Assembly: GCA_003278065.1 (NCBI GenBank)
Contig: QCHE01000001.1
Span: 62,001-126,000 of the forward strand
Source: Pelagibacteraceae bacterium AG-390-O04
Lineage (GTDB): Bacteria > Pseudomonadota > Alphaproteobacteria > Pelagibacterales > Pelagibacteraceae
Direction: 5' to 3'
Length of the DNA stretch: 64,000 nt
Shown: positions 6,137 to 28,142 of the stretch, piece after piece
Position numbering within the stretch: position 1 is the stretch's first letter
Layout: every line of letters begins with the position of its first letter
Position numbers and translations under genes: made by a program
Notes under the pieces: model-generated
Seen by the model: the letters and a program-made list of their open reading frames with translations, nothing else
The model's database searches: none
What the model was told of the DNA's origin: nothing

Positions 6137-7555
6137 ATGGAAAATAATTTGAATATTGTTAAAGACAAATTTCATGAACTCCCTAATAACATTGAAGCAG
6201 AACAATCTGTTATAGGTTCAATTTTAGTATCTAATGAAATATTTGATGAGATCAGTACAATCATATCTAATTCTAACTTTTATGATCCTATGCATCAAAA
6301 GATTTTCAATGCTATTGAAAGCTTAATTTATAAAGGAATGTTAGCTAACCCAATTACATTAAAAAATTATTTTGAAAATGAAAAAGACGATTTAAATATT
6401 CCAGAATACTTAGTAAAAATTACAAAATTTTCAACTTCTATACGTCAAGCTATTGAATATTCAAAAATAATTTATGATATGTTTGTAAGAAGAGAGCTAA
6501 TAAAAATTTCAGAGCAAACTATTGATAATGCTAAAATTAATGATTTAGATGTTAATGGACAAAATATTATTGAAAACTCCGAAAAATTATTATTCGATTT
6601 AGCTGAGAAAGGTTCTTTTAATTCTTCTCTTATTAAATTTGATGATGCCATGAAACAAACAATTGAAATGGCATCTGCTGCTTATAAAAATGAAGGTGGC
6701 ATTGTTGGAGTTCCGACTGGACTTAGGGATTTAGATAATAAACTTGGAGGATTACATCAATCAGATTTGATTATTATTGCAGGACGACCTTCAATGGGAA
6801 AAACATCATTAGCAACAAATATTGCGTTTCATGCCGCTAAATCAATTCAAGATAATGGAAAAAAGTCATCTATTGCATTTTTTTCTTTAGAGATGTCTTC
6901 AGAACAATTATCTACAAGAATTCTTTCTGAACAAGCAAGCATAGGGTCTAATGATATTAGGCGTGGAAGAATTTCTGATGATCAATTTGATAAATTTTTA
7001 GAAACCTCAAAGAATATTGCTGAACTTCCTTTATTCATTGATGAAACCCCTGCTATCAGCATTGCAGCTATGAGCAATAGAGCAAGAAGAATTAAAAGGC
7101 TTCACGGCTTGGATATGATTGTAGTCGATTACATTCAGTTAATGAGAGGAACTACTTTTAACAAAGACGGAAGAGTTCAAGAAATCTCTCAAATTACTCA
7201 AGGATTAAAGGCAATTGCAAAAGAATTAGCAGTTCCAGTTGTGGCATTGTCACAATTATCAAGGCAAGTTGAACAAAGAGATGATCATAAACCTCAGTTA
7301 GCAGATTTGAGAGAGTCAGGTTCTATAGAGCAAGATGCAGATGTGGTAATGTTTGTTTATAGAGAAGGATATTATTTACAAAGAAAAGAGCCAAGAGAAG
7401 CAACTGTAGAACATGCTGAATGGCAAGCTAAAATGAACGAAGTTGCTCATTTAGCTGAAATTATAATTGGAAAACAACGTCACGGCCCAATTGGTAAAGT
7501 AACTCTAGAGTTTGAAGAGAGATTTACTAAATTTAAAGATACTCAAACTAATTAA
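6137..7555 (+). CDS. dnaB: replicative DNA helicase DnaB
   Basis: 472 aa; PNNIEAEQSVIGSIL, AGRPSMGKTSLA Walker A, DLRESGSIEQDAD. Confidence 0.96.
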   Translation: MENNLNIVKDKFHELPNNIEAEQSVIGSILVSNEIFDEISTIISNSNFYDPMHQKIFNAIESLIYKGMLANPITLKNYFENEKDDLNIPEYLVKITKFSTSIRQAIEYSKIIYDMFVRRELIKISEQTIDNAKINDLDVNGQNIIENSEKLLFDLAEKGSFNSSLIKFDDAMKQTIEMASAAYKNEGGIVGVPTGLRDLDNKLGGLHQSDLIIIAGRPSMGKTSLATNIAFHAAKSIQDNGKKSSIAFFSLEMSSEQLSTRILSEQASIGSNDIRRGRISDDQFDKFLETSKNIAELPLFIDETPAISIAAMSNRARRIKRLHGLDMIVVDYIQLMRGTTFNKDGRVQEISQITQGLKAIAKELAVPVVALSQLSRQVEQRDDHKPQLADLRESGSIEQDADVVMFVYREGYYLQRKEPREATVEHAEWQAKMNEVAHLAEIIIGKQRHGPIGKVTLEFEERFTKFKDTQTN

Positions 7556-7575
7556 ATTCAAATATAAAAGAGCTA

Positions 7576-9963
7576 ATGTTTGCTCACATGTATCAAAATA
7601 CGATTTTAAAAAATCCAAAATCTGTTTTTATATTTTTATTAATAACTTTACTCAGTTTTGGATATTTTTCTAAAGATTTTAGATTAGATGCTTCTTCAGA
7701 GACTTTGTTAATTGATGGAGACCCAGACCTCAAATATTTGAAAGAAATTAGTGAGCGATATGGTTCAAAAGAATTTTTAGTATTAACTTATACACCTAAT
7801 GAGGGAATGAGTACTGACACATCCATTAATAATCTTTTAAGCTTAAAATATAAGATTCAAAGTTTAGATTGGGTGCATAATGTCATAACTTTATTGGATG
7901 TACCACTGCTAAATAATTCTGATGCTCCCTTACAAGAAAGACTGGAAACTTTCAAAACACTAAAAGATGAAGGTGTTGATCGTAATAGAGGTTTTCAAGA
8001 AATTTTAAATAGTCCTGTTTTTAGAAATTTTGTTATTAGTGAAGATGGAAAGACAAGTGGAATTATAGTTAATATAAAAAAAAATAAACCAATTGAGGAT
8101 ATCAAAAATAAATCACCTCGGGAAATAGAAAAATATCGTGATCAAATTAAAAAACAAAATCACGAAAATATTTTAGAGATAAGAGATGTAATTAAAAGCT
8201 ATGAAAATATAGGAAAGATTTATCTTGGTGGTATTCCAATGATTGCCGATGATATGATGACTTTTATTAAAAGTGATATTATTGTTTTTGGTTTAGGTGT
8301 TTTATTATTTATAATTGCAACACTTTGGTTTGTTTTTAGAAAATTAATTTGGATAATAGTTCCTATTAGTAGTTGTTTCTTTTCAGTTATTATTATGACA
8401 GGTCTCCTTGGAATTCTTGGATGGAAAGTTACTGTGATTTCCTCAAATTTTATTGCTTTAATGTTAATTTTAACGATGGCAATGAATATTCATATGAGTA
8501 CAAGATTTTTACAACTTAGAAATTCCCATCCAGAAAAAAAAATTATTGATATTTTAGTTTTAACAACAAAAAAAATGTATTGGCCAATACTTTATACTGC
8601 TTTAACAACTATTATCGCTTTTTTATCATTAATATTCAGTGAAATTAAACCGATTATTGATTTTGGTTGGATGATGACACTAGGGTTAATTACGTCTTTT
8701 CTAATTACTTTTACTCTTCTTCCAACTTTATTAAATTTTACACCATCAAAGGATATTTTTGTAGAAGAAAAAGACGATTCAAAAATTACAAATATTCTTG
8801 GAAGCTTTTCTATCAATTTTCAAATTCCAATTTTTATTATTACTATCTTCGTTATACTGCTAAGTATATTTGGTATCAGTAAATTAGAAGTTGAGAATAG
8901 TTTCATTAATTATTTTAGTAAAAAAACTGAAATTTATAAAGGTATGAAGTTAATTGATGAAGAACTTGGTGGCACAACTCCTCTTGAAGTTATTTTGAAA
9001 TTTCCTGAAAATAAAAAAAAAGAAGAGGAAAAAGATGATGATTTTGATGATTGGGAAGATGAAGGTCAGAAAGATAACGAAAAATATTGGTTTACAAAAG
9101 ATAAGATTGATACTATTGCCAATGTTCACAATTACTTAGATAGCCTTCCACAAATAGGAAAAGTGTTATCTTTTTCATCTATAATTGATGTGGCGACACA
9201 GCTCAATAATAATAAACCTTTAGGTACTTTAGAAATGGGTGTTTTGTACTCTAAAATTCCTGAAAGTATAAAAACAGAAATTATTGACCCTTATATCTCT
9301 ATAAAAGATAATGAGGCCAGAATAAGCATTAGAATTATTGACTCTCAAGAAGATTTAAGAAGAAATGATTTGATTAATAAAATTAATTTCGATTTACAAA
9401 ATAAACTAGGTATTGAAAAAGATCGTTATAAACTGGGAGGTGTTCTAATATTATTTAACAATCTTTTACAAAGTTTATTCAAATCTCAAATATTAACTTT
9501 AGGTTTAGTGATGATTGGAATTTTTATAATGTTTTTTATATTGTTTAGGAATATCAAATTATCTTTAATAGGTGTAATTCCAAATTTTATTGCTGCTTTT
9601 TTTATACTTGGAATAATTGGTATTCTTGAAATTCCACTCGATATGATGACTATTACAATTGCAGCTATAACTATTGGAATAGCAGTTGATAACAGTATTC
9701 ATTATATCTATCGTTTTAGAGAAGAATTTAATAAAATAAACGACTATAAAGATACAATAAAAATATGCCACTCAACAGTTGGTGTGGCTATTCTAAATAC
9801 ATCTATTACTATAGTATTTGGTTTTTCAATTTTAGTTTTATCAAAATTTATTCCCACAATATATTTTGGAATTTTTACAGGTCTAGCAATGTTGTTAGCA
9901 ATGATTTCAGTTTTAACCTTACTTCCATCTTTAATTTTAATTATTAAACCTTTTGGAAAATAA
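7576..9963 (+). CDS. RND/MMPL-family transporter (SSD-like membrane protein)
   Basis: 795 aa, two sets of TM helices with large extracytoplasmic domains; VDNSIHYIYRFREE motif. Confidence 0.85.
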   Translation: MFAHMYQNTILKNPKSVFIFLLITLLSFGYFSKDFRLDASSETLLIDGDPDLKYLKEISERYGSKEFLVLTYTPNEGMSTDTSINNLLSLKYKIQSLDWVHNVITLLDVPLLNNSDAPLQERLETFKTLKDEGVDRNRGFQEILNSPVFRNFVISEDGKTSGIIVNIKKNKPIEDIKNKSPREIEKYRDQIKKQNHENILEIRDVIKSYENIGKIYLGGIPMIADDMMTFIKSDIIVFGLGVLLFIIATLWFVFRKLIWIIVPISSCFFSVIIMTGLLGILGWKVTVISSNFIALMLILTMAMNIHMSTRFLQLRNSHPEKKIIDILVLTTKKMYWPILYTALTTIIAFLSLIFSEIKPIIDFGWMMTLGLITSFLITFTLLPTLLNFTPSKDIFVEEKDDSKITNILGSFSINFQIPIFIITIFVILLSIFGISKLEVENSFINYFSKKTEIYKGMKLIDEELGGTTPLEVILKFPENKKKEEEKDDDFDDWEDEGQKDNEKYWFTKDKIDTIANVHNYLDSLPQIGKVLSFSSIIDVATQLNNNKPLGTLEMGVLYSKIPESIKTEIIDPYISIKDNEARISIRIIDSQEDLRRNDLINKINFDLQNKLGIEKDRYKLGGVLILFNNLLQSLFKSQILTLGLVMIGIFIMFFILFRNIKLSLIGVIPNFIAAFFILGIIGILEIPLDMMTITIAAITIGIAVDNSIHYIYRFREEFNKINDYKDTIKICHSTVGVAILNTSITIVFGFSILVLSKFIPTIYFGIFTGLAMLLAMISVLTLLPSLILIIKPFGK

Positions 9964-9966
9964 TTA

Positions 9967-10512
9967 ATGCCTGAAGTTTTAATAAATCTTTATGAAGCAG
10001 TTTCAATTATTGATCTTATTTATATTATTTTAACAATACTTTCTTTAATTAAATGTTATAGAAATGGTTTTATTTTAAGCATTCTATCAATGGCAAAATG
10101 GTTGTTTGCCTATATTATTACATTAATTATTTTTCCTAGAGTTAAACCTTATCTCAAAAACATTATTGACAATGAATACATACTAGATATTAGTCTTGGT
10201 ACAACTATATTTATAATAGTAATTTTTTTAGTTTTAATTATCAACAAAGGAATCAGTAAAGTAATTAGGTATACTGGAATTGGAAGTTTAGACACTATTT
10301 TTGGATTCTTTTTTGGATTTATAAGAGCATATGTTATTTCTGTTTGTATTTTTTCAGGTTTTCATATTGTATATAATTATGATAAATGGCCAATAAATGT
10401 GAGCAAATCATTCGTCTTTCCATATTTAGAAAAAGGTAGTAATTATCTTTTAAAAGAATTTCCTGATGAAAAAACTTACAAAGATTCTAAAGAAAAAATT
10501 GAAGAGCTATAA
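9967..10512 (+). CDS. cvpA: CvpA family membrane protein
   Basis: 181 aa, 4 TM; directly upstream of and overlapping purF. Confidence 0.8.
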   Translation: MPEVLINLYEAVSIIDLIYIILTILSLIKCYRNGFILSILSMAKWLFAYIITLIIFPRVKPYLKNIIDNEYILDISLGTTIFIIVIFLVLIINKGISKVIRYTGIGSLDTIFGFFFGFIRAYVISVCIFSGFHIVYNYDKWPINVSKSFVFPYLEKGSNYLLKEFPDEKTYKDSKEKIEEL

Positions 10513-11947
10513 CCCAAAATTCAAAGAGGAATGTGGTGTATTTGGTATTAGTAATGCTAAAGAAGCATCTGCACTAACAGCTCTAGGGCTTCATGCTCTT
10601 CAACATAGAGGTCAAGAGGGATGTGGAATAGTGACTTTTGATGGTAGTCATTATTTTTCAGAAAAGAGATTTGGATTAGTTGGTGATAATTTTAATAAAG
10701 AAAAAATTTTAAAAAAATTAAAAGGAAATTATGCAATAGGTCATAATAGATATAGTACTACCGGTGAAAATACCTTAAGAAATATTCAGCCCTTTTTTGC
10801 TGATACTAATGCCGGAGGTATTGGTGTTGCTCATAATGGAAATCTTACCAATTCTATTTCATTGAGAAATAAATTAGTTGAAGATGGAGCTATCTTTTAC
10901 ACAACATCTGATACAGAAACAATTGTCCAATTGATTGCAAAATCAAAGAGAGAGAAAACAATAGATAAAATTGTTGATGCGATTTTTCAAATTCAAGGAG
11001 GATATGCTTTGGTAATGTTAACACAAAATTCTTTAATTGGTGTTAGAGATCCTTATGGAATCAGACCATTAATAATAGGTAAATTAAATAATAGTTATGT
11101 GCTATCTTCAGAGACATGTGCTTTAGATATAATTGGAGCAAAATTTATAAGGGAAGTTGAAAATGGTGAAATTGTTTTAATTGAAAATAATGAAATCAAA
11201 AGCATTAAGCCTTTTCCTCCTAAAAAAATAAGACCTTGTGTGTTCGAATATATTTATTTCTCAAGACCAGACAGTATTTTGAGTGGTAAAAGTGCATATG
11301 AACATCGTAAAAACCTTGGAATTGAACTAGCTAAAGAAAATAATTTAAATGCTGATATAGTTGTACCTGTTCCAGACTCTGGAAACGCAGCAGCTCTTGG
11401 TTTCGCCCAATATTTAGGAATTAGTTTTGAATTAGGCTTGATTAGAAATCATTACGTTGGAAGAACATTTATAGAGCCAAGTCAAAAAATAAGAAGTTTA
11501 GGGGTAAAATTAAAATTAAATGCTAATCAATCAACAATTAAAGGGAAAAAAATTATATTGATAGATGACTCTTTAGTAAGAGGTACTACTTCACATAAAA
11601 TAATAAAAATGTTATATGATGCTGGAGCAAGAGAAGTTCATATGAAAATTGCTTGCCCTGAAATTAGATTTCCAGATTTTTATGGTGTGGATACACCAAC
11701 AAAAAAAGAATTGCTTGCAGCAAATAAAACTAACGAACAAATTTGTGAATATATTGGTGCTAAATCCTTAAGTTTCTTATCAATAGAAGGATTATACAGA
11801 GCTATTGGGTTCGATAAAAGAAATGAAAATTACCCTCAATTAACAGATCATTACTTTACAGGAGATTATCCAGTTAAACCTATTGATGAACTAGGCGACA
11901 ATAAAGTCACTCAACTATCATTATTAAATAATGCATCTAATAACTAA
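10466..11947 (+). CDS. purF: amidophosphoribosyltransferase
   Basis: 493 aa; CGVFGI N-terminal nucleophile Cys preceded by propeptide, GHNRYSTTG, DDSLVRGTTS PRPP motif; start codon uncertain (ATG 10466 or in-frame TTG 10499). Confidence 0.95.
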   Translation: MKKLTKILKKKLKSYNPKFKEECGVFGISNAKEASALTALGLHALQHRGQEGCGIVTFDGSHYFSEKRFGLVGDNFNKEKILKKLKGNYAIGHNRYSTTGENTLRNIQPFFADTNAGGIGVAHNGNLTNSISLRNKLVEDGAIFYTTSDTETIVQLIAKSKREKTIDKIVDAIFQIQGGYALVMLTQNSLIGVRDPYGIRPLIIGKLNNSYVLSSETCALDIIGAKFIREVENGEIVLIENNEIKSIKPFPPKKIRPCVFEYIYFSRPDSILSGKSAYEHRKNLGIELAKENNLNADIVVPVPDSGNAAALGFAQYLGISFELGLIRNHYVGRTFIEPSQKIRSLGVKLKLNANQSTIKGKKIILIDDSLVRGTTSHKIIKMLYDAGAREVHMKIACPEIRFPDFYGVDTPTKKELLAANKTNEQICEYIGAKSLSFLSIEGLYRAIGFDKRNENYPQLTDHYFTGDYPVKPIDELGDNKVTQLSLLNNASNN

Positions 11948-22549: not shown

Positions 22550-23377
22550 ATGTCTTATCTTAATTCAAATCAACTCAAACAATATGAAGAAGAGGGCTTT
22601 GTGTCTCCTATTGATATTTTTTCAAAAGATAAGGCTTTAGACATTAGAAATGAAATTGAATATATAGAAAAAAAAATACCTAATGAGTTAGAAAAATCAG
22701 GTAGATATAATGCTCATTTAATTTCACCTTTATTAGATGAAGTTACTCATGATCCAAAAATTTTAGATGCAGTTCAAAGTTTAATTGGTAAAAATATTCT
22801 TGTTTGTGGAACAACTTTATTTATTAAAAACCCGAATGAAAAAGGATTTGTAAGTTATCATCAAGATGCAAAATATATTGGATTAGAACCTCATAACTGG
22901 GTAACTGCTTGGGTTGCTATAACTGACTCTAATGAAATAAATGGTTGTATGAGAATGTGGTCTGGCTCACACAAAGATAATCTTAAAGAACATGATCAAA
23001 AGTTTAATGAGGGCAATTTATTGACCCGAGGTCAAACTGTAAGAAATGTGCCAAAAGAAAAGACAACACCTTTAGTTTTGAAAGCAGGACAAATGTCTCT
23101 TCACCATCCGACTGTTGTTCATGGTTCTGATTTAAACAAAAGTAACGATCGAAGAATAGGTTTTGTAATCCAAAGTTATATTGGAACTAACGTAAAGCAA
23201 ATTTTAGGTAAAAATAGTGTTCAATTAGCAAGAGGTATTGATGAATTTAATTACCATGAAAAAATTGAAAGGCCTAAATCTTTATTAAGTGAGGATGACT
23301 TAAAAATAAAAAAAAAAGAAAATGATAATCTTCAAGATATTTTTTATAAAGGATCTTCAAAAAAAGGTTCCTACTAA
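22550..23377 (+). CDS. phytanoyl-CoA dioxygenase (PhyH) family Fe(II)/2OG oxygenase
   Basis: 275 aa; YHQDAKYIG (HxD), GCMRMWSGSHK, HHPTVVHGSDLNKSNDRR. Confidence 0.85.
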   Translation: MSYLNSNQLKQYEEEGFVSPIDIFSKDKALDIRNEIEYIEKKIPNELEKSGRYNAHLISPLLDEVTHDPKILDAVQSLIGKNILVCGTTLFIKNPNEKGFVSYHQDAKYIGLEPHNWVTAWVAITDSNEINGCMRMWSGSHKDNLKEHDQKFNEGNLLTRGQTVRNVPKEKTTPLVLKAGQMSLHHPTVVHGSDLNKSNDRRIGFVIQSYIGTNVKQILGKNSVQLARGIDEFNYHEKIERPKSLLSEDDLKIKKKENDNLQDIFYKGSSKKGSY

Positions 23378-23445
23378 TGAATAAAGAAAACGCAAGTAAA
23401 CTCTGGAAAATTATTCAGGAAGCTGGCGATTATCTGGGGGGTTAG
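23377..23445 (+). pseudogene. truncated 22-codon copy of the 5' end of the gene at 26793-27020
   Basis: MNKENASKLWKIIQEAGDYLGG* versus MNKENASKLWKIIQEAGDYLVGQ...; ATG overlaps PhyH stop (TAATG); 5 mismatches in 66 nt, first three synonymous. Confidence 0.85.
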
Positions 23446-23448
23446 CGG

Positions 23449-23488
23449 TACACACTAGCTCACACTACCTCACACTACCCTACACTAG
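23449..23488 (+). repeat. four tandem 10-bp units (TACACACTAG CTCACACTAC CTCACACTAC CCTACACTAG)
   Basis: Read directly; consensus ~CTCACACTAC, immediately after the truncated gene copy. Confidence 0.9.
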
Positions 23489-23522
23489 TTATGCGGACAA
23501 TTTAGAATTCATTAAAAATAAA

Positions 23523-23550
23523 TTGCTTAAAGACTCATCAATTTAAGCAA
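23523..23550. repeat. perfect inverted repeat TTGCTTAAA-10 nt-TTTAAGCAA
   Basis: 9-bp arms 23523-23531 and 23542-23550; right arm overlaps the left flanking direct repeat. Confidence 0.85.
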
Positions 23551-23590
23551 CAAACTAGGCACCAGACTAGGCAAATTTGAGATAAATCAA
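23541..23590 (+). repeat. left copy of ~50-bp direct repeat flanking the RM gene (30-bp exact core CAACAAACTAGGCACCAGACTAGGCAAATT at 23548-23577)
   Basis: 45/50 identity to 26730-26779. Confidence 0.92.
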
Positions 23591-23627
23591 ATAGTAAATT
23601 TTAGAGATTATTGATAAATTTATTTTA

Positions 23628-26600
23628 ATGGAAAAAGAAAAATTAATATTAAAATTAGATTTTAAATCAATTAATGGAAAATATATTAAAAAGTATAATA
23701 ACAATTATGAAATATCTATTGAAAACTTAAAAGTAAATTATGGTGATAAGATAAAAGTTTATAGAAATAATGTTTTAGATCTTAATTCTAAAGATGAATA
23801 TTTAGTAGTTTTAGAATGCGTCAACCAATTGCTTAAAATTGGTTACAATCCTGAGGATATAGAGATTGAAAAACAATATAGATTTGGAAGGCAATACAAG
23901 TCTTATTGTGATGTTTTGGTAAAAAAGAATAATAAAACATATTTAATAATTGAGTGTAAAACTTTCGGTAATGAATATATTCGCGCAAAAGAGCTTACAA
24001 TAAAAGACGGAGATCAAAGCTTTAGTTACTTAAGACAAGAACCTGACGTTAAAGTTGTATCACTTTATACCTCAAAATTAAAAGAAGATAAAATTGTTAG
24101 AAATTATGATTTTATAAGAGTTAAAAAGGGGTGGAAAAAATTATCTCACGAAGACTCTTACAAAGATTGGGACAAAAGTTTTGAAAAAAAAGGATTACTT
24201 GAAGACAATGCCAAACCATATTCAACAGATAAAGGAAATTTAACATATAATGATTTAAAAAATTTAAATGAGACTGAAGGTGGATTTATTTTTAATTTAT
24301 TTGCAGAAATTTTAAGAAGAAATGTAATATCTGATAAATCAAATGCTTTTAACAAAATATTTAACTTGTTTATTTGCAAAATTGTAGATGAAGACAAGAA
24401 ATCAGCCAGTAAAGATTCTGATTTAGATTTTCAGTGGAAATCTGATACCGATGATCCTAAATCTTTCCTACTAAGATTGGAAGAGTTATATTCAAAGGGT
24501 TTGAAAGATTATATAGATGTATCTACTTTTAGATTCTCTAATGATTATGATGAAATAAAAATTAAATTAAGTAATAATTTTAACTTTAAAGACGTTTATA
24601 ATGATGAAACTTTTATCGAAAATTTTGATATTGTAAAACAAGTTGTACAATTATTGCAAGAATTTCAAATTAACTACAGCTCAAAACATCAATACGTTGG
24701 TGATTTTTTTGAAAGTTTATTAAACCATGGTGTAAAACAAGAAGCAGGACAATTTTTTACTCCAACTGTTTTAGCAAGATTTATTTGCAAATCATTACCT
24801 ATAGAAAAATTAATTGAAAAAAAAAATGATAACGAAGAAATATATTTTTTTCCTTATGTAATAGATTATTCTTCAGGAGCTGGTCATTTTCTGACAGAAA
24901 TGATGGATGAGATTAATATATATTTTTCAAAATTTGACGCTGAAAAAATCAAAAGTGGACGAAGAGGAAGAGACGAATTCGTTTCACATAAAAATAATTA
25001 TCTTTGGGCAAAAGAATATGTTTATGGTATAGAGAAGGACTATAGGTTAGCAAAAACTACTAAGATAAGTTCTTTTTTAAATGGTGATGGTGACGCAAAT
25101 ATTTTTCCTTGCGATGGTCTCGATAGTTTTTTTAAATCAAAAGTTTATAAAAAAAAATTAAAAATAAATGAAGAAAATCAGGATAATTCAAACTTTGATA
25201 TAATAGTTGCCAACCCTCCATTTTCTGTTCAATCATTTCAGAATTCTCTTCCTCATGCTAAAGAAGATTTTAATCTATTTAAACTTCTATCTGATAAAAG
25301 CAAAGAAATTGAATGTTTGTTTATTGAAAGAACAAAACAATTAATTTCAAAATATGGTGTTGCAGGAATTATAATACCAACTTCAATTTTTATTAACGAT
25401 AGCCCCTTACATAAAGAAACAAGAAGAATTTTATTAGAAAATTTTGATTTACAATCAATTGTGATGCTTAACTCAGAAGCTTTTATGGAATCTACTCAAT
25501 CAACGTGCGTATTGTTTATGTCAAAAAAAGAAATTTCTTTATCGACAGATCCAAAAGATTATATACAAGAATTTTATCCAAATATTAAAAATTCTAAAGA
25601 ATTTCAAAATATTTTACAGAAAATAAATCCTGATAATTTAGATATATTTGCTTTCTACAAAGAATATGAAGATTTCGATAAACTGAATGGACAAGAGAAA
25701 ATCGATAAAATCAAACAAAATGAAAATGATAAAATTCAATGTTTTAATTGGATTAAAGATAAAGATATAATAATTGTTGATACTGACTTAGGAGATCATA
25801 AAAAAACAAAGAGATTATTAGGTTACGAATTTAGAAAAAGACGAGGCCAAGAAGGTATTAAAATTTACAAAAAAAATGGAAAACTTTTTAATGGCCTATT
25901 CAACGAAGAAGATGTTTTGGATAAAAGTAAAATTAATTCTTATATTTTAAATAAATTTGAAAATAATAAAAGTTATAAAAATATAAATCCTGATATTAAA
26001 AATTATTTAAAAATAAAAAAAATATCTGATTTGATAAAATTTGATACTTTAGATTTTGATTATAAATTAATAATAAAAGAACCAATTAATATAATTTCTA
26101 GTTATGAAAAAATAAAAATTAAAAATCTAGATAATAGTAAACTAAATAATTTAGAAATTGAAATCGAGAAAGGAAGTTCAGCTCCTGAAGATGAATATTT
26201 TATTAGTGGAAAGCACCAATTTGTAAGAGCCAAAGACCTTAATAACATTGATGATAACGGCTTTATTAAAACCAAGAATGATGATTGTTTAACTGACATA
26301 GCTTTAAAAAAATATAATTTAAAAAAATTTAAATCAGGCACTATATTGTTTCCTACAAGTGGTCAGGCAATTAATACTAACAATATAGGGATTTTAAAAA
26401 ACGATTCTTATGTTGTTCAACATCTAACTGGAATTTATATTAATAATGAAAAAATAAGAATATTTATTTATGATTTTTTGAAATATTTTAAGACTAGCAA
26501 TTTAAAAGAGGCTGACCAAGGCTACCCTACCATTAAACCTTCTCTAATTTACAATTTAGAGTTACCTATACCAAACAAAGATCAAAAGATTTTGTTTGCT

Positions 26601-26729
26601 GAGATTGAGCAACACTTAAAAAAAAGAGATTCTATTTATAAAAATGAAAATAATATTAGAAAAAGAGATTTGTTGCTTAATAATCTAATAATAGAAACAT
26701 GTAAAATTTCAAAAGAAGATATTAAGTAA
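23628..26729 (+). CDS. single-polypeptide restriction-modification enzyme (Type IIG-like: PD-(D/E)XK nuclease + N6-adenine methyltransferase + TRD)
   Basis: 1033 aa; nuclease CDVLVKKNNKTYLIIECK, MTase QEAGQFFTPTVLARF, DYSSGAGHFL (motif I), IIVANPPFSV (motif IV), C-terminal HsdS-like TRD GYPTIKPSLIYNLELPIP. Confidence 0.88.
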   Translation: MEKEKLILKLDFKSINGKYIKKYNNNYEISIENLKVNYGDKIKVYRNNVLDLNSKDEYLVVLECVNQLLKIGYNPEDIEIEKQYRFGRQYKSYCDVLVKKNNKTYLIIECKTFGNEYIRAKELTIKDGDQSFSYLRQEPDVKVVSLYTSKLKEDKIVRNYDFIRVKKGWKKLSHEDSYKDWDKSFEKKGLLEDNAKPYSTDKGNLTYNDLKNLNETEGGFIFNLFAEILRRNVISDKSNAFNKIFNLFICKIVDEDKKSASKDSDLDFQWKSDTDDPKSFLLRLEELYSKGLKDYIDVSTFRFSNDYDEIKIKLSNNFNFKDVYNDETFIENFDIVKQVVQLLQEFQINYSSKHQYVGDFFESLLNHGVKQEAGQFFTPTVLARFICKSLPIEKLIEKKNDNEEIYFFPYVIDYSSGAGHFLTEMMDEINIYFSKFDAEKIKSGRRGRDEFVSHKNNYLWAKEYVYGIEKDYRLAKTTKISSFLNGDGDANIFPCDGLDSFFKSKVYKKKLKINEENQDNSNFDIIVANPPFSVQSFQNSLPHAKEDFNLFKLLSDKSKEIECLFIERTKQLISKYGVAGIIIPTSIFINDSPLHKETRRILLENFDLQSIVMLNSEAFMESTQSTCVLFMSKKEISLSTDPKDYIQEFYPNIKNSKEFQNILQKINPDNLDIFAFYKEYEDFDKLNGQEKIDKIKQNENDKIQCFNWIKDKDIIIVDTDLGDHKKTKRLLGYEFRKRRGQEGIKIYKKNGKLFNGLFNEEDVLDKSKINSYILNKFENNKSYKNINPDIKNYLKIKKISDLIKFDTLDFDYKLIIKEPINIISSYEKIKIKNLDNSKLNNLEIEIEKGSSAPEDEYFISGKHQFVRAKDLNNIDDNGFIKTKNDDCLTDIALKKYNLKKFKSGTILFPTSGQAINTNNIGILKNDSYVVQHLTGIYINNEKIRIFIYDFLKYFKTSNLKEADQGYPTIKPSLIYNLELPIPNKDQKILFAEIEQHLKKRDSIYKNENNIRKRDLLLNNLIIETCKISKEDIK

Positions 26730-26779
26730 AATTAAACAACAAACTAGGCACCAGACTAGGCAAATTATAGATAAAACAA
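26730..26779 (+). repeat. right copy of ~50-bp direct repeat (exact core 26737-26766)
   Basis: Matches 23541-23590 at 45/50 positions. Confidence 0.92.
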
Positions 26780-26792
26780 GGTTTTGAGTAGT

Positions 26793-27020
26793 ATGAACAA
26801 AGAAAACGCAAGTAAACTGTGGAAAATTATTCAGGAAGCTGGTGATTATCTGGTTGGTCAATTACCTGAACATCCAAATCACCCTAAAGGTCGTAATCCT
26901 TATGCGCATGTTGCTCTGTGTATAAGAGATAAATTTAATGCAAGTTACAAAGATATACCTGATGAAAAATATGATGATGTATTAGAATATATTAAATTTT
27001 TAAAGGAAAACCCAAGTTGA
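26793..27020 (+). CDS. small conserved hypothetical protein (intact copy)
   Basis: 75 aa from ATG 26793; 5' end duplicated at 23377. Confidence 0.8.
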   Translation: MNKENASKLWKIIQEAGDYLVGQLPEHPNHPKGRNPYAHVALCIRDKFNASYKDIPDEKYDDVLEYIKFLKENPS

Positions 27021-27026
27021 TAGAAA

Positions 27027-28142
27027 TTATTGTTTTGGAAAATAATCTTTCAGTTCACCTTCTCGATAAACATCGGCAGTACAACAATGCAAACCTCCTC
27101 CAAAAGCATATGCATCTCTTAGTTCAACAGGAATAACCTCCATTCCTAATTTATCTAGTTGTTCTGCTTGGTATTTTTCACTTTTTTCAACACAAACTGT
27201 TTTATGATCAAGGACTAAAACATTCATAGATAGCCATACAGATGAATAACAAAGAGCTGGGGGTTCATTATGTGCTGGCTGAGCTGCATCAATTATTTCC
27301 CAGCCATTATTTTCAAATAATTTTCTTTGTTCCTTTGGCAATCTTCTTTGTGGATTATTAATTATTAACCCCTCTTTTATTGGAGTAAATGTAGCATCAA
27401 TATGAATTGGATATGGGTCTCCCGGAAAATTAACTGCATGTACTCTATGATCTTTATAATGTCTCTTAAGCCAATCAATGCCTTTTAAATTAGTTGTAAA
27501 ACCATGTTGAACAATCAAATCTTTCCCAAATCTTAGTACATCTGCAGCATCAAATAATGGTTCTTCTTCTGTAGTAACAAAAAATTTATCTTCAGTCCAT
27601 TTTAGTCTTTTTTGAATTCCTATTTTATCCGACAAATAATCTTTACGATAATCAGCATCTGTTAGTCTTGGTTTTGGGGCTGACTCATGTTTCATATTAG
27701 GATCATTATTATAATATTCTTTTAAAAGAGGTCGATAACATAAATATTCAAACCAACGACATCTATAACTCATTGTTGCCTCAAGAATCTCATTTCCAAC
27801 AGTTAACAAGACATCTCTTGGTGGCATACAACCAAACATGGTCTCCGCCTTCCAATCAGGTGTTGATGTTTTTTGGTTAAAATCAATCGGTGTCGGTCTA
27901 TCAACTTTAATTCCTTTTTTTATTAGTATATTAGCAAAGTCATCCAATAATTGATTTGCTTTATCTACGGTATCTTTTGTTCTTGGTCCAAACTGACCTC
28001 TCATATCAGAGTCCTCTGGAACTTTAGCATCAAGAGCTGGTTCTGGAGCGGGTATACAAGTTCCATCTGCTTTACCAACTATTACATGTTTAAGTGGATC
28101 CCATTCATTCCAGCTATTAACTATAGTTTTATTTTTATTCAT
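27027..28142 (-). CDS. glycine amidinotransferase (AGAT)-like amidinotransferase
   Basis: 371 aa; PPRDVLLTVGNEILEATMSYRCRWFEYLCYRPLLKEYY, HIDATFTPI, FGGGLHCCTADVYREG catalytic Cys region, closely resembling eukaryotic AGAT motifs. Confidence 0.9.
   Translation of the reverse strand: MNKNKTIVNSWNEWDPLKHVIVGKADGTCIPAPEPALDAKVPEDSDMRGQFGPRTKDTVDKANQLLDDFANILIKKGIKVDRPTPIDFNQKTSTPDWKAETMFGCMPPRDVLLTVGNEILEATMSYRCRWFEYLCYRPLLKEYYNNDPNMKHESAPKPRLTDADYRKDYLSDKIGIQKRLKWTEDKFFVTTEEEPLFDAADVLRFGKDLIVQHGFTTNLKGIDWLKRHYKDHRVHAVNFPGDPYPIHIDATFTPIKEGLIINNPQRRLPKEQRKLFENNGWEIIDAAQPAHNEPPALCYSSVWLSMNVLVLDHKTVCVEKSEKYQAEQLDKLGMEVIPVELRDAYAFGGGLHCCTADVYREGELKDYFPKQ

Follow-up and report, generated by a model that had tools for sequence, protein, structure and literature searches.

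Elements that are bounded by att sites and lack integration genes are known in the form of pseudo-SCC elements, and arm sites formed by direct repeats to either side of a core are familiar from the attP sites of Tn916 and lambda; both have counterparts in the cassettes described here, which were found in a 64,000-nucleotide stretch (the window) of contig QCHE01000001.1 from Pelagibacteraceae bacterium AG-390-O04, whose genome comprises 1.06 Mb in 31 contigs. SAR11 bacteria rank with the ocean's most abundant kinds of cell, and to our knowledge the gain and loss of phage defence and surface genes in their tiny genomes is poorly understood; the start of a small conserved gene in the window appears to be a site of gene swapping, hitherto unrecognised, in cells that are among the commonest of the sea. 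Among described systems, the notion of a cis-mobilizable element (CIME) provides one point of reference (PMC3146451), and the ssrA islands of Dehalococcoides, which insert serially at the 3′ end of the tmRNA gene with target repeats and variable cargo, provide another, sixteen of them carrying a serine recombinase module and some lacking integration genes (PMC3146451). Additive islands with repeated target fragments also occur in streamlined plankton, as the tRNA-Lys repeat islands of Methylophilaceae and as tycheposons; both have tRNA targets, and tycheposons carry a tyrosine recombinase and span 4-200 kb (PMC10872708).

In the window the 66-nt 5′ end of a conserved 75-aa gene is present twice, 3,416 bp apart, flanking a single 1033-aa type IIG gene, so that the net insertion is 3,416 bp. 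The two copies (23377-23442 and 26793-26858) share 92% identity across their 66 nt and, as an earlier reading of this DNA from its sequence alone had stated, their first three differences, which lie before the crossover, are at synonymous third positions (AAT/AAC, CTC/CTG, GGC/GGT); the overlap that it reported between the ATG of the left copy and the stop codon of a PhyH gene is likewise present, and this copy terminates in TAG. Between the copies lie, in order, a 10-bp tandem array, an inverted repeat (TTGCTTAAA...TTTAAGCAA, 23523-23550), a direct repeat (D2), the 1033-aa open reading frame and the second direct repeat, the two repeats being 51 nt long (23540-23590 and 26729-26779) and 90% identical. 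We located every component listed by the sequence-only reading, but the array, inverted repeat and direct repeat prove to be parts of one conserved cassette end rather than separate oddities, and it is the AAAGACTCATCAATTTAA sequence and not the hairpin stem that is kept across cassettes. Its statement that no recombinase is visible holds, the restriction-modification enzyme being the only open reading frame of the window cassette. Chance is excluded as a source of the duplication, because the intact gene is found order-wide (105 of 148 genomes, nearly always as one full-length copy) and the same 18-25-codon stub recurs upstream of it in many relatives: 74 of 121 genus genomes match the small gene, and about 15 of these also have a shortened copy of that length, mostly upstream of the intact gene. 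As the alignments place them, the shortened left core continues the chromosomal PhyH side and the intact gene begins with the cassette-borne copy.

An exact empty site is present in another member of the Pelagibacteraceae (G201, locus L122), in which a PhyH gene encoding a 90% identical protein ends in TTAATG and is fused to the intact small gene, the PhyH end (...TTAATGAATAAAG...) leading directly into it. L122 and the window give two alignments, one from the right flank to the gene and one from the left flank to the core, with 81-84% identity and an overlap across the core. A further genome (G503, L140) has different cargo at the same PhyH junction, and elsewhere one and the same upstream gene precedes empty (L005, L007), cargo-less 227-bp (L246) and loaded 1.5-kb (L036) states. 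On these sequence comparisons the window locus has both the target duplication (attL/attR-like) and the empty site of a site-specific integrative element. Integration into the 5′ end of a gene with rebuilding of that gene, as originally suggested for the window, is supported by the empty site, by the other cargo and by insertions at unrelated sites (below).

Comparison across the genus shows that this is one member of a cassette family in Pelagibacteraceae (SAR11) that inserts at about codons 18-20 of the 75-aa gene, each cassette carrying its own leader and first 20 codons, such that the gene is rebuilt and a shortened copy is left upstream. A 173-nt query comprising the core and left end was run on 399 genus genomes, and the conserved left end was present in roughly 60 of them (about one in six of those sampled, carriers being counted among the matches listed). 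We tabulated 59 core-to-core cassettes, ranging from 227 bp to 6.8 kb and mostly with different cargo in the same 20-codon context; the 126 proteins of 90 aa or more that they carry between the same repeats as cargo fall into 111 clusters. Tandem arrays of two or three cassettes are seen at L035, L039, L058, L065 and L092. In the window, the cargo enzyme combines in one chain a predicted HSDR_N nuclease, an Eco57I-type methylase with NPPF and a C-terminal specificity domain, the organization of a type IIG enzyme (Pfam PF07669, E 3.2e-12; PADLOC REase_MTase_IIG, E 2.5e-142), although the nuclease domain (PF13588) scores slightly below the Pfam cut-off. The cargo as a whole is rich in restriction-modification functions (ResIII, C5 methylase, N6 methylase, S subunits, Eco57I, GmrSD and EcoRI methylase), and also includes secreted proteins, dehydrogenases, part of a TRAP transporter, a TypA plus DEAD-box pair and polysaccharide lyases; calling the window element a defence cassette is too narrow, restriction-modification being a frequent cargo alongside many others. 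The TypA/BipA and DEAD-box helicase genes, normally housekeeping genes, are carried by the cassette at L038 (2998-6686). Most of the genomes are incomplete single-cell (or metagenome) assemblies, in which chimeras occur, but for the family an artefact is excluded by the recurrence of the cassettes, by the empty site and by their presence in G384 and G419, both of them complete genomes in a single contig, which also answers the suggestion that the window might contain a false assembly join. In a complete genome of genus g5 (G415, L136, 2743-3759), a porin-like gene is flanked by duplicated cores whose differences are mostly synonymous.

The order of parts from the left is the core (60 nt), a conserved end of about 115 nt, the left D2, the cargo, the right D2, the leader, and the core with the remainder of the gene, and most of the 59 cassettes have this common core, left end and D2 architecture. 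Within each D2 repeat (45 nt across the family) an 8-nt word occurs twice in nearly identical form, at a period of 11-12 bp, and AGATAAATCAA follows. These words vary widely between cassettes and tend to match left and right within one, with a mean match of 18.4 of 22 within cassettes compared to 13.7 of 22 between them (0 of 10,000 permutations). In the pair L043/L085, which share the same cargo at 97%, the left and right words have changed together; L033 and L062 differ mainly in the right D2 module, whereas L036 and L083, which have common cargo, do not have the same core, left end or left D2. Three units (L135 and L246, each of 227 bp, and L076) have no cargo and consist of core, left end and a single D2. 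The left-end hairpin was rejected as a conserved structure, as by inspection its stem is not retained across cassettes, and a comparison with Rfam gave no match.

About three independent insertions are found outside of the small gene, at sites that are empty in relatives. One, at L074 and in its relative L073, has purK on one side and a SRAP-family gene on the other; a second (L075) is near cytochrome genes; and the third (L076) is the cargo-less unit, whose neighbours are a transglycosylase-like and a tRNA-Ser-like gene. For L074, comparison of the empty site GACTATTATTAGTAGG with attL GACTATATTTGGGG and attR GGCGATTTATTAGTAGG puts the crossover in the common ATTATT with a one-base shift. Insertions at unrelated sites are not expected from homologous recombination alone, and thus favour site-specific recombination.

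No tyrosine recombinase is encoded in any cassette checked (Pfam, the 25 highest-ranking of 70 families in the pooled cargo), and because the cassette encodes no recombinase the enzyme would have to act in trans. The PF00589 matches in carriers are away from the cassettes: there is nearly always one Xer/Cre-like recombinase per carrier genome, on another contig or distant from the cassette, and the complete carriers G384 and G419 each have exactly one, about 324 kb away. Among solved structures it matches Cre and XerC/D best, and it scores about 30 bits against the NCBIfam integron integrase, for which the cut-off is 265. In nearly every Pelagibacter genome a 35-bp palindrome (14+7+14; ATTACTAACGATAA-TTAATGG-TTATCGATAGTAAT) lies beside the start of this lone recombinase gene, conserved and just upstream of it (L094, L095, L096, L266-L269 and L272); in the window's genome both arms are altered and still pair (TTTCCGATAA...TTATCGGAAA). 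The palindrome looks like the recombinase's own dif-type site, in a putative one-enzyme dif system with the site adjoining the gene, and the cassette core is only weakly similar to it. The classical dif pattern proved too unspecific to help. Few serine recombinases occur in carriers (a single match over the cut-off among 20 genomes), and small arm-type integrases of 322-340 aa occur in 13 of 300 genomes; these were discounted as helpers, there being no cassette core or left end beside them in the two examined (G010 and G081). An island of a different type in G010 (L126, contig C2, near 7527-11847) encodes a small arm-type integrase, with a C5 methylase-like gene next to it and a protein resembling the L043/L085 cargo. 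A phage collection searched with the core and left end gave no match. No full integrase-bearing element was seen at the small gene, although the left ends of L054, L066, L072 and L078 run off their contigs, so that a larger one could be missed. The moving enzyme could be either the resident recombinase acting off its main site or a visiting one such as a phage integrase.

We favour the explanation that a tyrosine recombinase provided in trans carries out site-specific integration and that the paired D2 words are arm-type sites, and put its probability at roughly 60%. The cassette would excise as a circle through recombination of core with core, and a site-specific tyrosine recombinase would integrate it at the AT-rich crossover GGCGATTATTTG, the paired 8-nt words acting as arm-type binding sites about 95 nt to the left and about 125 nt to the right of the core in the circle. 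The enzyme would most likely come from a phage or larger element that the carrier usually lacks, and the variation of the D2 words suggests that there may be several such visiting integrases. A broader proposal, that recombinase-less cassettes at the start of this one gene are family-wide in SAR11, with matched hypervariable paired-repeat tags as identity marks for mobility, and depend for any movement on a matching integrase from an outside element, is more tentative, and we hold it at somewhat less than even odds. Alternatively, the resident Xer/Cre-like recombinase may drive the cassettes as Xer-exploiting elements with accessory sequences, much as cer/psi and TLC-type elements use Xer. It is nearly the sole tyrosine recombinase in carriers, with Cre and XerC/D as its closest solved relatives, and the core contains CGATTA compared to the dif-like CGATAA beside the recombinase gene and on a dif matrix has a median rank close to the 99th percentile; however, the register was preset on CGAT, which makes the percentile weak, and 0.7 to 17% of background positions equal it in the ten cases printed. 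The right half of the site is moreover dissimilar, the palindrome beside the recombinase gene is a separate and better-formed site, and a fixed host enzyme leaves the variable D2 words unexplained, and we think this explanation unlikely.

The sequence-only reading had left open mobilisation in trans or by homologous recombination; the former stands, by elimination only, and the latter is disfavoured by the unrelated-site insertions. That there is no dedicated recombinase now, and that existing cassettes are simply exchanged by homologous recombination via the left end, the core and the downstream genes, seems to us quite improbable, since it accounts neither for those insertions nor for the origin of insertion, although module swaps bounded by common sequence (L036/L083 and L033/L062), together with about 175 nt in common on the left and syntenic genes on the right, are as it would predict; homologous recombination is probably at work in addition, for cargo exchange. 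Compatible with the trans-acting tyrosine recombinase, although rather unlikely, is a two-level, integron-like platform in which the D2 repeats are recombination sites by way of which an empty 227-bp cassette already in place takes up cargo. The cargo-less units and the position of cargo between two D2 copies with matching words are consistent with this, but deletion between the D2 repeats of a loaded cassette yields the same 227-bp unit, and at the secondary sites it is the whole cassette including its left end that was inserted. Several observations weigh against integration by a trans-acting tyrosine recombinase. The searches for integrases, for serine recombinases and in the phage collection found no helper recombinase; a clear ATTATT likeness to the core is seen only at L074, the L075 and L076 sites being merely AT-rich; a cassette's own right D2 ranks first in no more than 22 of the 37 that were scored, and the words are mismatched in recombinants, L033 among them; the D2 word pairs could instead be operators or cargo-exchange sites; and the L136 core duplication lacks the conserved left end and is in another genus.

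Like CIMEs and pseudo-SCC elements, the cassettes retain putative att sites (attL/attR), contain only cargo with no integration genes, and accrete in tandem; however, CIMEs are regarded as decayed relatives beside a full element, whereas there is no integrase-bearing parent among the cassettes tabulated and there are many small units with one conserved end. They share with the ssrA islands serial insertion at one gene, a repeated target and variable cargo, but use the 5′ end of a protein gene and have no recombinase module. With the Methylophilaceae islands and tycheposons they share additivity and repeated target fragments; unlike both they have a protein-gene target, and unlike tycheposons they have no recombinase and a size of 227 bp to 6.8 kb. 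Integron cassettes are similar in their small, promiscuous cargo without an integrase of its own and their arrays at one site, but here no intI lies near the cassettes, the resident recombinase is far below the integron-integrase cut-off, the target is a rebuilt coding start, and no attC was recognised (no attC model was run). The paired D2 words on both sides of the core resemble the arm layout of Tn916 and lambda attP, from which the cassettes differ in the hypervariability of the arm sequence and in having no integrase. We found no description of such cassettes in the open literature searched, a scope that leaves out most subscription papers. The small gene offers a defined and searchable insertion site with conserved ends, delivering restriction-modification and many other genes, at which SAR11 gene turnover becomes directly countable in metagenomes, and the cassettes pose the question of which enzyme moves them.

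Table 1. Features of the cassette locus and its flanks in the window.
Feature	Position	Strand	Basis or remark
PhyH-family dioxygenase gene, left chromosomal flank	22550..23377	+	Pfam PF05721, E 1.4e-27; fused straight to intact small gene in L122
attL-like shortened copy of the small gene's 5′ end	23377..23442	+	Codons 1-20 form the shared core (~60 nt); cassette sequence and TAG follow; boundary recurs in other cassettes
Approximate crossover zone GCGATTATCTGGG, inferred	23428..23440	+	Secondary-site junctions
Conserved cassette left end	23437..23550	+	Seen in roughly 60/399 genus genomes
~10-nt x 4 repeats, part of left end	23451-23487	+	TTATGCGGA also in left end
Imperfect inverted repeat containing AAAGACTCATCAATTTAA, part of left end	23523-23550	+	
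Left D2 repeat, proposed arm-type sites	23551..23590	+	Word pair ACTAGGCA-CCAG-ACTAGGCA (23554-23561, 23566-23573) plus AGATAAATCAA
Cargo, 1033-aa single-chain type IIG restriction-modification enzyme	23628..26729	+	Pfam, PADLOC
Right D2 repeat, identical word pair ACTAGGCA-CCAG-ACTAGGCA (26743-26750, 26755-26762)	26729..26779	+	90% identity to left D2
Cassette-borne 5′ leader of rebuilt small gene	26780..26792	+	Right-end alignment
Intact 75-aa conserved small gene	26793..27020	+	Leader and first 60 nt form the cassette-borne attR-like copy
Arginine-deiminase (ADI)/amidinotransferase-like gene, right chromosomal flank	27027..28142	-	Weak Pfam ADI match; same neighbour in relatives

The downstream neighbour of the small gene is largely constant, and the upstream neighbour varies. 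Its product has no family in Pfam or NCBIfam and no fold match in the PDB, and is predicted to form three helices (pLDDT 90). One 8-kb contig (G449:C15, L138) contains two identical-scoring copies of the gene in inverted orientation, which probably reflect an amplification chimera. Finally, a nested repeat is present in 17 of the 59 cassettes (e.g. L033, L064, L084 and L090), in which ATGAAAAAACTTTTAGGGATCGTGGTTCTGGG (MKKLLGIVVLG) begins different secreted cargo proteins; many of these 17 also have a short, stopped copy of this signal-peptide start (such as MKKLLGIVVLGYRIL*) directly before the right D2, as if signal-peptide starts served as a second swap point.
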